Program-made: the position numbers and the translations under genes
The notes under the pieces: model-generated
The model's database searches: none
What the model saw: only the letters and a program-made list of their open reading frames with translations
Told to the model about the DNA's origin: nothing
Virus record (IMG/VR): IMGVR_UViG_3300025874_000006
Span: 1-64,000 of that record
Length of the DNA: 64,000 nucleotides
DNA from: a virus
Reading direction: 5' to 3' (one strand)
Part shown: piece after piece, positions 34,980-42,340 of the stretch
How the letters are laid out: every line of letters begins with the position of its first letter
Numbering within the stretch: position 1 is the first letter of the stretch

Positions 34980-34987
34980 TATTTATA
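34980..34987 (-). promoter_or_regulatory. T4-type late promoter
   Basis: TATAAATA on the minus strand overlapping the stop of the exonuclease gene and 41 bp upstream of the 383-aa gene. It separates an early unit from a late one. Confidence 0.7.
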
Positions 34988-35702
34988 TGTCAAGAACATT
35001 TGCACTATTTTCTTCATTATATTGGGCAATAGTGTCGCGAAGTGGACGTACCCAGTTGTCACGATGTTCAATAAACACTTGAGGTTCGTGATTATCAACG
35101 GAGATAATTGTAACGAGTTGAGTGATGGGCATTCCAGTGCGTTCTTCCCACATGATGGAATATGCAGACTCTTGCATGAAGTAGTTCTTAATCCAGTCAA
35201 GACGTTTGGGTTTCATAGAAGTCTTGTAGTCGATGATAGACAATTTACCATCGAAGACGCCTACGCAATCCACACGGCCGGCAACACCCAGATGGGTAGA
35301 GTACAGTGGTGCTTCTTGAGCATGAACGACAGAAAGACGTTCGTCAAGGATTGGTTTAATCTTTAGGAAGGAATCTATTAGGTCAGGAGTACGTTTGGTC
35401 AACTTCTGTTCACCAGTGTCGATATCCATAGCCATGTACTTGTCATAGTCTGGATCGTTGTTGACATACTGTTCACAGATTTCGTGAACCGCAGTACCAC
35501 GCGTAGATGCGCGATAGGAGACACGGTTCGCTTCTTTCTCACCAACACGAGCACGCCATTTAGCAATGGAGTCGCGAGAGAGAATAGAAAGAACAGTAGT
35601 GATAGAAGGTAAGGTGATACCTTCGGGGGTTTCGTATTGACGACCAGTGTCCGTAGTTACGGCAGTCATCTCAGTCAGTTCCACGGGAACATGTTTAAAC
35701 AT
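34983..35702 (-). CDS. PD-(D/E)XK exonuclease (Cas4/RecB/MGME1-like)
   Basis: A 239-aa protein. TRGTAVHEICEQYV is the helical His region, GVAGRVDCVGVFDGKLSIIDYKTSMK holds the catalytic D...DxK core, and YFMQESAYSIMWEE has the QxxxY motif typical of RecB/Cas4-like exonucleases. Role in DNA resection during recombination is likely. Start 35702 (MFKHVPVEL) follows promoter copy 1. The first codons are duplicated in a truncated copy at 36017. Confidence 0.85.
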   Translation of the reverse strand: MFKHVPVELTEMTAVTTDTGRQYETPEGITLPSITTVLSILSRDSIAKWRARVGEKEANRVSYRASTRGTAVHEICEQYVNNDPDYDKYMAMDIDTGEQKLTKRTPDLIDSFLKIKPILDERLSVVHAQEAPLYSTHLGVAGRVDCVGVFDGKLSIIDYKTSMKPKRLDWIKNYFMQESAYSIMWEERTGMPITQLVTIISVDNHEPQVFIEHRDNWVRPLRDTIAQYNEENSANVLDI

Positions 35703-35733
35703 AATATAATCCAATTCAATTTAATATACCCCT

Positions 35734-36371: not shown

Positions 36372-36445
36372 TGGTGGAGGAACGGGGAATCGAACCCCGA
36401 TCGACGCCGTGCAAGGGCGCAGTAATCCCGTTATACTATTCCCCC
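36372..36445 (-). tRNA. tRNA-Ala (TGC)
   Basis: Full cloverleaf with a GGGGGAA/TTCCTCC acceptor, GGGGTTCGATTCCCC T-arm, anticodon loop CTTGCAC and encoded CCA. Its 5' end overlaps the 3' end of the HNH gene by 10 bp. Confidence 0.92.
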
Positions 36446-36855
36446 AATAATGCTATTACTTCTTCCTTGTATTTACTATGAAACATTTCATGATGATTTG
36501 GACATAATGGTATAAGGTTATTTATATCATTGTTATGATGGTTCTCATCCATATGATGAACCACCACAATCTTATCAAAACCACATATCCTACATTCTTT
36601 AGGATTATGTCGAAAACATAGAGTTCTATAGTTAGTAGCGTTTTTATTCCAATAGTCTTGTCTATTATTGGCACAACTTCTACTACAGAATTTAGATTCT
36701 GTCACTTTCTTGGTGAGTGCTCTACCGAATACGGTATATGATTCTCCGCACCTAACACAGTCTTTACTATGTTCTTTTTCTTCACCAAATCTTTTATTGT
36801 AAGCAGCTGTTTGTTTTTGTTTATACTCTTCAGTATGATAACGACCATTATTCAT
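36436..36855 (-). CDS. HNH homing-type endonuclease, 139 aa
   Basis: The N-half has paired Cys (CVRCGESY and FCSRSCANN) that probably bind zinc. ECRICGFDKIVVVHHMDEN then NNLIPLCPNHHEMFH is a classic HNH/ββα-metal site. Nicking or cutting specificity unknown. The gene ends inside tRNA-Ala and has a late-type box at 36883. Confidence 0.88.
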   Translation of the reverse strand: MNNGRYHTEEYKQKQTAAYNKRFGEEKEHSKDCVRCGESYTVFGRALTKKVTESKFCSRSCANNRQDYWNKNATNYRTLCFRHNPKECRICGFDKIVVVHHMDENHHNNDINNLIPLCPNHHEMFHSKYKEEVIALLGE

Positions 36856-37092: not shown

Positions 37093-37168
37093 TGGAGCGG
37101 GTAGTCGGGTTTGAACCGACCGCCTCAACCTTGGCAAGGTTGCGCTCTACCAAATGAGCTATACCCGC
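37093..37168 (-). tRNA. tRNA-Gly (GCC)
   Basis: Normal cloverleaf with a 7-bp acceptor GCGGGTA/TACCCGC, GTCGGTTCAAACCCGAC T-arm, anticodon loop TTGCCAA and encoded TCCA end. Confidence 0.93.
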
Positions 37169-37173
37169 AATAT

Positions 37174-37243
37174 TGGAGCGGAGTGTAGGAGTTTCACCTA
37201 CCTTCAATGGGGGGCACCCATAGACCCAATAACTGGCCTCCGC
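37174..37243 (-). tRNA. degenerate tRNA-like element, possibly Gly (GCC)
   Basis: GCGGAG/CTCCGC acceptor with TCCA end and a T-stem GTAGG/CCTAC, but the T-loop is TGAAACT in place of TTCxAxx, and the D-arm does not fold normally. The anticodon loop could read GTGCCCC. Only 70 nt long. Either a decayed second tRNA-Gly or a specialised tRNA-like RNA. Confidence 0.45.
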
Positions 37244-37250
37244 AAATTCT

Positions 37251-37466
37251 TTACTCTACAGTCAACTGGTCGGCCCATTTCAATTCCTGAATGATTCTAT
37301 TATACCAATTAGAATCTTCTTCTGAATTGTTCGGATTATCCCTTTCTACAGTCAATTGTTCTATACGCACAGTTATATAGTCTGTTCGTCTAGACGCCTT
37401 ACGTGATATCCTATCTAATAACTTTTTCTTCGAACCTGTCAACACTTCTATATTATTATAATCCAT
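37251..37466 (-). CDS. hypothetical protein, 71 aa
   Basis: MDYNNIEVLTGSKKKLLDRI opens a basic/acidic mixed helical protein. ATG 37466 gives 8-bp spacing to GGGGTG; it overlaps the cytochrome peroxidase gene end by 11 bp, which suggests coupling. Not recognised. Confidence 0.6.
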   Translation of the reverse strand: MDYNNIEVLTGSKKKLLDRISRKASRRTDYITVRIEQLTVERDNPNNSEEDSNWYNRIIQELKWADQLTVE

Positions 37467-38880
37467 TGTCATTACACCCCAAATCTCTACGCGAGTCTTC
37501 ATCATTGTTAGTTACACAATTACCACTTGGTAATTCTTCTGGTACATATCTCATCAAGTCTGAGTCGTATAGACCCTCTTCTAAGAAAGAAATTAAGTTG
37601 TCTGTCTCTTCATCAGTCAGACTGAGAGGAACAAACCGATAATCCAAATCAGTTATCTCTACCTGTGGATGTTCAGGAATACCTGCTACTTTATATCGTA
37701 CAACATCTGCTATAGATGACATAGAACCACCGTGACCGAATACAGTAGTATCTTTAAGATTGTATAGGGGTGGTACCTTAAAGGCAAAATCAGACATCTG
37801 GTCACCAGTAAATCCACCACGACCTTTTCGGTCGGCTTCTTTCACTTCACCAACAGTCTCTTCCCAGATATCCAAGTCATGGAAACCTAGAGTCATAAAC
37901 ACTTCACTCGCCAAAGAACCGACAGGTGAGGATAACGCGGGCCCATTATGACACCCTGCACAATTACCTTTACCGAAGAACACCTTCGCACCTTCGACTT
38001 GTTCTAGGGTCATAGCATTTTCATCACCTCGCAACAACCTCTGGAAGGGTGCGCGGTTTGCAAGTACAGTACGTTCATATGCTGCAATCGCAAGTGCAGC
38101 TGCTTCCAACATGTCGTCTGGTTGAGATGTACCGTATGCCGCTTCAAACATCATCTGATACTTCTCATTAGTGGTAAGGATAGAACCCTCTTCGCCAGGA
38201 TTAAGTCTATGCACTCCTAGTCCAGCAACCGCCTGAGTCTCCAGACCAGAGAAGTTACGTAAGTTAGCTTCCTTCGGAGTACCCTCGGTGAAGTGTCGTT
38301 CAGGATCTATACCAATATTGACAATACCACCAATCACATTACCGAATTGGCCATTCCATAACATAACTTCTTGGTATGCGGTATTCAATATAGTAGGCGA
38401 TGTTAAAGGTTGTACATCAGCAAACTCTTCCATACCTTCCGCGAAATTACGATGGTCAAATCCAATACCACCTTCACCAATACCTTGACGAATACCGGAC
38501 TTAAATCCGTTCTGACCATTATGACAAGATGCACAAGACCATGTGTTGTTCATATCGGTTTCATTGGTCTCGGTCGAAGTCATACCAGTTTCATGGAAAA
38601 GCAACTTGCCGAGTTCCACCTTATCCGAGGTAATAGGATTACTAGGGTCTTGTGGGATGTTTAAGAAGTCATCGCTCTCTGGTAGGATATAACCTTCATA
38701 GGAACCGGTCGGTGAGGTTACACTCAATATATCACGAAGTTCACCAATAGAAACTTCTAGAGCTGTGGGTTGTGGGGGCGGAGTAACCGTTATAGGTTCT
38801 ACCGGAGTAGTCTCAGAACCACCGGAACCACAGGCAGTTAGGAATATAGACGATGACAACAACGCAATTTTACTATTCAT
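37456..38880 (-). CDS. di-haem cytochrome c peroxidase family lipoprotein
   Basis: A 474-aa protein. The lipoprotein signal ends in FLTAC (Cys at 17). Two c-type haem sites are CASCH (116-120) and CAGCH (307-311), with VELGKLLFHETGMTS before the first as in CcpA/MauG-type peroxidases. It would be exported, lipidated and haem-loaded by host systems, then reduce peroxide or oxidise a partner in the periplasm. Found between tRNA-Ser and the tRNA-Gly pair; a cytochrome of this class is very unusual for a phage. ATG 38880 gives a clean signal peptide. Confidence 0.88.
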   Translation of the reverse strand: MNSKIALLSSSIFLTACGSGGSETTPVEPITVTPPPQPTALEVSIGELRDILSVTSPTGSYEGYILPESDDFLNIPQDPSNPITSDKVELGKLLFHETGMTSTETNETDMNNTWSCASCHNGQNGFKSGIRQGIGEGGIGFDHRNFAEGMEEFADVQPLTSPTILNTAYQEVMLWNGQFGNVIGGIVNIGIDPERHFTEGTPKEANLRNFSGLETQAVAGLGVHRLNPGEEGSILTTNEKYQMMFEAAYGTSQPDDMLEAAALAIAAYERTVLANRAPFQRLLRGDENAMTLEQVEGAKVFFGKGNCAGCHNGPALSSPVGSLASEVFMTLGFHDLDIWEETVGEVKEADRKGRGGFTGDQMSDFAFKVPPLYNLKDTTVFGHGGSMSSIADVVRYKVAGIPEHPQVEITDLDYRFVPLSLTDEETDNLISFLEEGLYDSDLMRYVPEELPSGNCVTNNDEDSRRDLGCNDNGL

Positions 38881-38916
38881 AATATAAGAGCCTCTCATAA
38901 CTCTTTTCAATTGTAG

Positions 38917-39007
38917 TGGCGGAGAGGGTGGGATTTGAACCCACGATACGCTATTAACGTATGCCAGTTTTCAAGACTGGTGCATTCAACCGCTCTGCCA
39001 CCTCTCC
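38917..39007 (-). tRNA. tRNA-Ser (TGA)
   Basis: Class II tRNA with a long variable arm, GGAGAGG/CCTCTCC acceptor, anticodon loop CTTGAAA and encoded GCCA. The cytochrome peroxidase gene starts 37 bp downstream. Confidence 0.92.
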
Positions 39008-39018
39008 ATTTACTACGT

Positions 39019-39047
39019 ATGATACACTAATAATTACTGCTTGTCAA
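39019..39047 (-). promoter_or_regulatory. sigma70-type promoter
   Basis: Minus strand TTGACA, 17 bp, TATCAT, just upstream of tRNA-Ser. Could also express the cytochrome peroxidase gene early. Confidence 0.68.
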
Positions 39048-39454: not shown

Positions 39455-39847
39455 TTAAAATACCTTATTAATTTGTATTTGGTTGTTGATTATTACTAAT
39501 GTAGTCGCAGTATTCATAATATTAAGAGATGTTTCGCGAGACATTAAGGTTGTATCGCCCCTAAGCGCGGCATATATTAACAGATTCGACAATAGTTTAA
39601 CCCCTACAAGTGTTTGAGGTGAGGGGTTATTTCCATATACAGGATTTCCTTCCTCTAGACACTCGTTAAGGGGCATATCACTGGTACATACATACTTTAA
39701 TGCTTTATAAGTTTGCAGTGTGTCCACTGTTTGCAACGCTAGAAAGTATTTGTATTTGGTCTGTTCCTTTTCTGTCCAATCATTATATCCAGTACCGGAA
39801 CAGCCGGTAAGAAAAACTAATAAAAGTATAGTTAAGATATTTTTCAT
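39455..39847 (-). CDS. lipoprotein, 130 aa
   Basis: MKNILTILLLVFLTGC is a clear lipoprotein signal with Cys at 16. The mature part is helical with two more cysteines (VCTSDMPLNEC) that could form a disulfide. Function unknown; a surface or exclusion role is possible. Stands between tRNA-Pro and tRNA-Asp. Confidence 0.72.
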   Translation of the reverse strand: MKNILTILLLVFLTGCSGTGYNDWTEKEQTKYKYFLALQTVDTLQTYKALKYVCTSDMPLNECLEEGNPVYGNNPSPQTLVGVKLLSNLLIYAALRGDTTLMSRETSLNIMNTATTLVIINNQIQINKVF

Positions 39848-39867: not shown

Positions 39868-39944
39868 TGGCGGACTGGACGGGACTCGAACCCGCGACCT
39901 CAGCAGTGACAGTGCTGTATTCTAACCAACTGAACTACCAGTCC
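39868..39944 (-). tRNA. tRNA-Asp (GTC)
   Basis: Cloverleaf with GGACTGG/CCAGTCC acceptor, GCGGGTTCGAGTCCCGT T-arm, anticodon loop CTGTCAC and encoded GCCA. Its 5' 23 bp are shared with the end of the HNH gene. Confidence 0.93.
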
Positions 39945-40281
39945 TTTTATTAGGGTTTCCCCATGTTTCCGTTTGAGAATGACAATTAGGACATAACAGC
40001 CGCAGATTTTCTATGCGATTGTCTCTATTGTTACCGTTGATGTGGTCAACCTGTAATATTAGAGTCTTTCCGTTGTATTCTCTTCCCACTCCACATTCGG
40101 AGCATGAGTCATATAGTTCGTTGATATATCTCCTGATACCTTCTCTGTAGTTAGAATCTTCTACCAACTTCTTTTTGACTACGTCCTGTCCTTGACATTT
40201 ATTACTACAGTAGATGCCCTTAGATTGACTTGGGTAATACTGAAATTCAGTATCACAATTTTTACAGATACCTTGTGCCAT
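39922..40281 (-). CDS. HNH homing-type endonuclease, 119 aa
   Basis: Zinc-knuckle N-half (ICKNCDTEF, YCSNKCQGQ, SCSECGV) then LQVDHINGNNRDNRIENLRL and LCPNCHSQT, a clear HNH site. The last codons lie inside tRNA-Asp. Late box at 40311. Different from the other HNH protein in length and detail but equal in layout. Confidence 0.9.
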   Translation of the reverse strand: MAQGICKNCDTEFQYYPSQSKGIYCSNKCQGQDVVKKKLVEDSNYREGIRRYINELYDSCSECGVGREYNGKTLILQVDHINGNNRDNRIENLRLLCPNCHSQTETWGNPNKRTGSSVG

Positions 40282-41733: not shown

Positions 41734-41987
41734 ATAAATTCCCTCAAAAGTGCTGATCCCAGCATTACCATCATAACTGCGTTAAGTATAATCAGTGCAC
41801 GGTCTTCCCACATCACTGATACCCACGCCCAAAGACCCGTGCCGACTACTCCTACGGCAAGATCGTATAACCTATACTCAGGGCCTGCTTGTCTAAACAT
41901 TACCGATATTATGATACAAACAGTCGCAGCCCATTTCACATACCAGTCAAGATTATCAGGATACCATTTAGTATCAGGTTTACTCAT
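41730..41987 (-). CDS. small membrane protein, 85 aa
   Basis: Three hydrophobic segments. WYVKWAATVCIIISV and WEDRALIILNA resemble segments of the protein at 120-545, so the pair may be paralogues. Role unknown. Confidence 0.68.
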   Translation of the reverse strand: MSKPDTKWYPDNLDWYVKWAATVCIIISVMFRQAGPEYRLYDLAVGVVGTGLWAWVSVMWEDRALIILNAVMMVMLGSALLREFI

Positions 41988-42340
41988 TAGGACTTACTAC
42001 CAATAGTTCTTCTAACGATATCGTTGTGATTGAACTCTGCCCAATACAACTCAAACGCGACTCCGTCTTTGAGACCTTCGAACTGGTGGATCTTGCCTGG
42101 TTTGACTTGGGTGAACTCGCCCGCACGTAGTATGGTTTCGTCAACAAGACCATCTTGGTCATCTTGCCAAACACGCACAATCATCTCACCGGATTCTACG
42201 AAGAACCCGTTCCATTTGTGTTCGTGCAGATGTTCGGAACACTTGAAACCTTTTTTAAACTCGATACGATGAAACTCAAGAACACCGTTCGCGTGAACTA
42301 GTTCTGTCTGTCCCCAGATCTTTCCTGATTTCATTGTCAT
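41987..42340 (-). CDS. cupin-fold protein, 117 aa
   Basis: SEHLHEHKWNGFFVESGEMIV gives the HxH...E cupin motif 1, and KPGKIHQFEGLKDG motif 2. Metal binding is likely. Resembles sugar-binding or isomerase cupins; substrate unknown. Co-transcribed with the membrane protein. Confidence 0.8.
   Translation of the reverse strand: MTMKSGKIWGQTELVHANGVLEFHRIEFKKGFKCSEHLHEHKWNGFFVESGEMIVRVWQDDQDGLVDETILRAGEFTQVKPGKIHQFEGLKDGVAFELYWAEFNHNDIVRRTIGSKS

Follow-up and report, generated by a model that had tools for sequence, protein, structure and literature searches.

A lineage of marine T4-like phages carries a di-haem lipoprotein of the CCP/MauG peroxidase superfamily, and this peroxidase is a long-resident gene of the viral lineage under purifying selection. 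Such a lipoprotein is unreported in annotated phages, where the copy of Phage C48C1 is called a "hypothetical protein". Judged by its ligand residues, the enzyme is neither CcpA nor MauG, and together with its bacterial kin it constitutes, on the sequence features tested, a subfamily apart from CcpA, MauG, and MbnH. The gene lies in a stretch of 64,000 nucleotides (the window, positions 1 to 64,000 of IMG/VR record IMGVR_UViG_3300025874_000006), which comes from a virus record of 151,103 bases carrying UvsX, a DnaB-like helicase, a DNA polymerase, and RNR, and which belongs to a T4-like phage. The features of the locus are collected in Table 1.

Table 1. Features of the peroxidase gene, its protein, and its surroundings, in window positions
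Feature	Position	Strand	Basis or remark
Di-haem CCP/MauG-superfamily lipoprotein CDS, 474 aa + stop codon	37456..38880 (without stop 37459-38880)	-	ATG at 38880
Lipobox LTAC, residues 14-17, lipidated Cys17 (predicted)	38830..38841	-	sequence motif
N-terminal (peroxidatic) haem site CASCH, residues 116-120	38521..38535	-	sequence motif
C-terminal (electron-transfer) haem site CAGCH, residues 307-311	37948..37962	-	sequence motif
C-terminal tail, Cys455 + Cys469	37474..37518	-	each Cys in 48/50 representatives
Glu136-Gly137; Glu136 at distal-His place of CCPs (MacA H93)	38470..38475	-	E 46, D 4 of 50
Trp175, invariant, aligned with inter-haem Trp of WDGR motif	38356..38358	-	alignment
His224-Arg225, invariant, beside absent Glu of "xEM" motif	38206..38211	-	alignment
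Tyr396-Lys397; Lys397 aligned gap-free with CCP axial Met / MauG Tyr294	37690..37695	-	alignment
Sigma-70-type promoter TTGACA-N17-TATCAT, upstream of tRNA-Ser + peroxidase CDS	39019..39047	-	pattern match
tRNA-Ser(TGA), immediately upstream of peroxidase, same promoter	38917..39007	-	tRNA call
tRNA-Gly(GCC), downstream of peroxidase	37093..37168	-	tRNA call
tRNA-Ala(TGC), conserved downstream boundary of locus	36372..36445	-	tRNA call
tRNA-like remnant, unconfirmed	37174..37245	-	cloverleaf-like fold, six-pair acceptor-like stem
PD-(D/E)XK exonuclease (phrog_298), downstream with conserved synteny in viral lineage	34983..35714	-	

Membership in the CCP/MauG di-haem peroxidase superfamily is confirmed by the Pfam model CCP_MauG (PF03150), which matches the window protein at an E-value of 1.5e-22 and with 81.3 bits (cut-off 25.6), as well as by the two CxxCH motifs and the two-domain fold. 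The initial annotation, which had read a di-haem CCP/MauG lipoprotein on a phage from a lipobox and two CxxCH sites, is thereby borne out. The PHROG search gave no match (best E 0.22). All NCBIfam models stayed under their own cut-offs, the best scores being those of the MbnH-type model TIGR04039 (112.2 bits) and of a His-Xaa-Ser MauG-like model (111 bits). An AlphaFold2 model (mean pLDDT 80.8, pTM 0.84), for which 50 sequences had been aligned, found in a structure search 6e1c at Z 27.2, MacA at 27.1, other CCPs at 26-27, and MauG at about 24, while the matches to RoxA and TsdA (Z 5-7) were taken as partial fold likeness only. According to the Lol rule, a lipoprotein without Asp at position +2 of its lipid Cys goes to the outer membrane. 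Since the residue +2 after Cys17 is Gly in 18 and Ser in 37 of the 55 viral proteins, and Asp in none, the window lipoprotein is most likely placed, as far as lipobox and residue +2 can predict, on the periplasmic face of the outer membrane. Its tail is likely closed by a Cys455/Cys469 disulfide.

The active-site places were read from sequence alignments of 50 phage and bacterial representatives. As in CcpA, MacA, BccP, and NgCcP, the protein has two CxxCH haems in a two-domain fold, an inter-haem Trp, an active-site Gln, and an FHDG-type His: Trp175 and Gln216, aligned with WDGR and LEEQA, are kept in 50/50 representatives, and His383 of the FHDG-like motif is retained across all 50. In contrast with those enzymes, it carries Lys397 for the axial Met and Glu/Asp136 for the distal His, has no catalytic Glu at the "xEM" place, and adds an insert of ~40 residues (WNG to LETQA), the lipid anchor, and the two-Cys tail. 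We take Met, Tyr294, His93, and Glu113 to be ligands or catalytic residues of CCP, MauG, and MacA, in agreement with the variant titles among the structure matches. The place of the axial Met or of MauG Tyr294 lies 14 residues past the FHDG-type His, and there the window protein has Lys397, ungapped, which is found in 50/50 representatives and is preceded by Tyr396 in 49/50. Tyr313 of the MauG-like query shares its column with the MacA Met, and the alignment of this query to the Y294H MauG chain stops at 294/313. MacA His93, spotted by the H93G chain difference, aligns with Glu136 (46 Glu, 4 Asp), and both the axial Met and the blocking distal His of the classical CcpA are therefore absent. 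Also absent from the window family is the Glu that follows the Gln by ten residues (MauG Gln103 to Glu113), place 226 being Leu, Met, or Gln in an ungapped alignment that a structure might alter.

MauG (3l4m) has the fold in common with the window enzyme, at Z about 24, and neither of the two has a distal His or an axial Met, but the window enzyme shows Lys at the place of Tyr294, with Tyr396 one residue earlier, lacks Glu113, and scores 83.3 with the MauG model TIGR03791, whose cut-off is 443.85. The top structural match, 6e1c, which we take to be MbnH and whose own title names a MauG-like protein of copper homeostasis, is tied with the classical CCPs (27.2 vs. 26.6-27.1), and the MbnH-type model TIGR04039 gives 112.2 bits against a cut-off of 362.85. 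The initial assignment to a CcpA/MauG type thus stands at the level of the superfamily and falls at the level of a CcpA or MauG identity, given Lys397, Glu/Asp136, and the absent Glu113. A literature search that left most subscription journals outside its coverage returned no Lys-ligated CCP/MauG member; passages of PMC4496055 describe fatty-acid CCPs, and passages of PMC6311187 assign two His ligands to RoxA and a Lys to Lcp, which is unrelated. We put forward tentatively, with less than even confidence, that this could be a new marine viral and bacterial subfamily with a rebuilt active site, in which one haem would be His/Lys-ligated, an acidic residue would replace the distal His, and the His-Arg pair would substitute for the Glu in acid-base catalysis, with viruses using it to reset the redox state of the envelope and having passed it to new bacteria. 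Yeast and plant peroxidases have a distal His/Arg, so the predicted role of the His-Arg pair would be convergent.

That the viral contig was misassembled or contaminated with bacterial DNA has a practically negligible probability, and we found no evidence in favour of this. Chimeric junctions, envisaged in the initial annotation, are very unlikely because both junctions recur in an independent IMG/VR contig (L001), which is 91% identical in DNA over 10 kb across the locus and whose peroxidase CDS differs from that of the window at 12 of 1422 nt, 2 of the differences being nonsynonymous; moreover, dozens of contigs and the circular complete genome OQ984149.1 hold the peroxidase among hallmark phage genes. 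A scan of 2.9 million viral contigs, which keys on exact peptides and so misses distant relatives, yielded 55 viral loci encoding relatives of 50-100% identity. The nearest named relative is Phage C48C1 (OQ984149.1), a circular complete T4-like genome classed in Kyanoviridae, whose CDS0082 is a 65% identical orthologue likewise lying between tRNAs and the exonuclease. It is the only true phage record with a relative among 50,697 annotated phage records. A canonical di-haem peroxidase query against the annotated phage records revealed no further true phage. Among the matches to the window protein, those at ~26% came from two Salmonella contigs and from two "phage" records of 10 kb, and all four were taken as host sequence and not as phage genes. 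We found no report of such a phage gene in the literature, most subscription journals being outside the coverage of the search.

Each of the 55 full-length viral proteins, which represent 40 distinct coding sequences, retains its lipid Cys and the two haem motifs along with Trp175, Gln216, His224, Arg225, His383, Tyr396, and Lys397, and degenerate haem sites, the other finding that could have overturned the initial annotation, are thus rejected. The median dN/dS is 0.10, computed over the 66 pairs, out of 780, that satisfy 0.05<dS<1. Hallmark phage genes on the contigs, conserved synteny, and purifying selection were all found, as is expected of a phage-resident auxiliary gene. Among 61 relatives that bear the exonuclease and extend 3.5 kb or more upstream of it, the peroxidase is present in 29 and absent in 32, and its presence needs 2 changes on the exonuclease tree (66 rows). 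A recent capture is rejected by the deep viral diversification and by composition, the GC of the gene being 0.438 vs. 0.429 (sd 0.020), and its GC3 0.34 vs. 0.41 (sd 0.05), for 19 other window genes.

The bacterial relatives, at 42-57% identity, are uncharacterised lipoproteins named "cytochrome c peroxidase" in Alteromonadaceae and Bacteroidota, which belong to the same subfamily with all its signature residues and, unlike the viral ones, are chromosomal (a few on plasmids) and patchy, occurring in 6 of 196 Alteromonadaceae genomes. The alignments comprised 51 and 50 representatives under ~88% identity, drawn from 88 full-length rows, plus L054, and the trees left out near-identical viral rows together with the incomplete rows L042, L055, and L090. 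In the phylogeny against bacterial lipoproteins that the initial annotation had suggested, now a tree of 39 proteins, the viral proteins fall within Gammaproteobacteria next to Glaciecola sequences (96/89, 97/94), and by this tree the viral peroxidase probably came from Alteromonadaceae-like bacteria in one capture or two. All the viral rows and one bacterial sequence, L058, form a single group, whose weak support (87/52) accommodates one capture as well as two, and a single bacterial origin of the viral CCPs is accordingly weakly supported. Of the host capture proposed initially, the bacterial origin probably holds and the one-off event does not, in view of the 55 loci, the purifying selection, and the conserved place.

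The bacterial copy L058, nested in the viral clade, comes from a "Haliea" MAG of the Halieaceae (CAJXWP010000006.1, 5839-7338) and is placed on a bacterial chromosome because alaS, lysC, and the MTHFR gene flank it, together with a tRNA-Ser(GCT). A tree that forces it to branch apart from the viruses is rejected (p-AU 0.002), and of 120 genomes in its family, no other has the peroxidase gene. The best reading of this one MAG is that it records a transfer from phage to bacterium.

In the tRNA-bearing relatives, the peroxidase stands, with few exceptions, between tRNA-Ser(TGA) and tRNA-Ala(TGC), followed by the same PD-(D/E)XK exonuclease; L049 has a tRNA-Asp after the peroxidase, L040 is without a tRNA-Ser or tRNA-Ala call, and L052-L055 have different neighbours, with tRNAs absent in both of the two that were scanned. 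In 27 of the 29 scanned loci without the peroxidase, tRNAs are absent. The tRNA cluster belongs to the phage itself, and the position in it, initially taken as a hint of capture from a host, says little about the origin of the peroxidase. The decayed tRNA reported beside the gene is plausible in that the element is cloverleaf-like and conserved (100% identical in L001 and 98.9% in L003), but Rfam gives nothing for it, even at E<=1. The cluster holds a second small lipoprotein of 130 aa with lipobox LTGC (39455-39847, minus strand), for which Pfam and PHROG give no match. HNH-endonuclease-like ORFs at 36436-36855 and 39922-40281 (minus strand), the latter recognised only by reading, overlap the ends of tRNA-Ala and tRNA-Asp and are possibly homing endonucleases of the cluster. 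A cupin-domain protein (41987-42340, minus strand) matches a PHROG named cysteine dioxygenase (1.2e-12), and at 38893-39019 (minus strand) a sub-threshold match to the Rfam sX4 sRNA (52.4 bits, gathering 70) overlaps tRNA-Ser and probably arises from tRNA-Ser-like sequence within that family.

Sigma-70-type promoter matches of at least 11/12 were found in 30 of the 34 distinct 260-nt sequences upstream of the viral peroxidases, and where the tRNA-Ser has moved off, the site stands directly before the peroxidase. As a control, the same pattern precedes 69 of 296 other genes of at least 150 aa in those loci, clustering in few families such as the exonuclease (25/30), which, also promoter-bearing, likely acts early. 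The promoter pattern suggests that host RNA polymerase may read the peroxidase early in infection. Sigma-70-type sites recur ahead of tRNA units and the exonuclease in the viral lineage, and a perfect 12/12 site lies just upstream of tRNA-Asn and tRNA-Leu (42587-42559, minus strand).

As to activity, substrate, timing, and benefit, we infer a phage-borne lipid-anchored enzyme that would consume peroxide in the envelope of the infected cell. The gene would be transcribed by host RNA polymerase soon after infection from the sigma-70-type promoter, and the protein would be anchored by the Sec/Lol path in the envelope, most likely at the outer membrane. Its two haems would be attached by the host Ccm machinery; the need for host haem attachment, anticipated in the initial annotation, fits the absence of a cytochrome c assembly gene (PF01578) in 5/5 virus records. 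The N-terminal haem, without the distal His that blocks resting CCPs, would react with H2O2 or an organic hydroperoxide, electrons would be passed by Trp175 and by the C-terminal haem, whose predicted ligands are His and Lys, and phage production would continue under oxidative stress as peroxide is consumed in the periplasm. A peroxiredoxin (Redoxin, 1.9e-28), itself a peroxide-consuming enzyme, lies upstream of the peroxidase in 16 of 56 viral loci, namely L056 (10349-10942) and 15 more; Phage C48C1 carries one, whereas the window's own 151-kb record and most CCP-bearing loci are without it. It backs the peroxide reading only mildly because CCP-less relatives have it while the window record does not. 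An obligatory companionship is rejected, given the 16 of 56 loci and the absence from the window record.

We hold the peroxide-consuming reading at about even confidence because the loss of the axial Met argues for MauG-like chemistry. An axial Met gives CCPs a haem potential suited to electrons from cytochrome c, and Lys in its place would lower this potential and make it more MauG-like, which counts against peroxide consumption, as does the acid-base Glu missing at its usual place. The main rival, rather unlikely in our estimate, is a MauG/MbnH-like oxidase for which peroxide would be a means of oxidising side chains on an envelope protein of the host or the phage, for example a receptor, and not something to be removed. 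The top named models are the MbnH-type and His-Xaa-Ser MauG-like ones, but their scores lie far under the curated cut-offs; the top structure is MauG-like, but tied with the classical CCPs; and the distal His and axial Met are absent as in MauG, but Tyr294 and Glu113 of MauG are replaced. The lipid anchor would also put such an oxidase beside envelope proteins, against which it must be set that neighbour clustering revealed no dedicated partner gene conserved across genera beside the bacterial homologues, which fits a self-contained peroxidase, and that the neighbours of the viral peroxidases are backbone genes with no obvious partner among them.

Phage envelope lipoproteins often serve superinfection exclusion, and the sigma-70-type promoter would suit such a surface lipoprotein, whose envelope position would matter more than redox turnover. 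We consider this improbable, given that the haem sites and pocket residues are invariant in 50 phage and bacterial members, so that the chemistry is kept, and that the bacterial homologues are chromosomal. Very improbable, and already disfavoured, is a neutral hitch-hiker captured along with the tRNA cluster; the variability of the tRNA region and the absence of the peroxidase from about half of the related loci would fit it, but the low dN/dS, the lack of any broken copy among the 55 full-length viral proteins, and the retention of the gene's own promoter even where tRNA-Ser is not adjacent speak against it.

Phages seldom carry c-type haem enzymes that depend on export and on covalent attachment of the haem, and here a whole lineage retains one. 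The unnamed subfamily would, if the Lys in place of the Met/Tyr ligand is confirmed, add a ligand set new to the CCP/MauG superfamily, and the locus offers a worked case of what is probably a gene passage from bacterium to phage and back to bacterium. The peroxidase also makes a redox step of infection at the periplasm and outer membrane testable, and an intact lipid-anchored two-haem enzyme in marine T4-like viruses suggests that they may alter the redox chemistry of the host envelope during infection.
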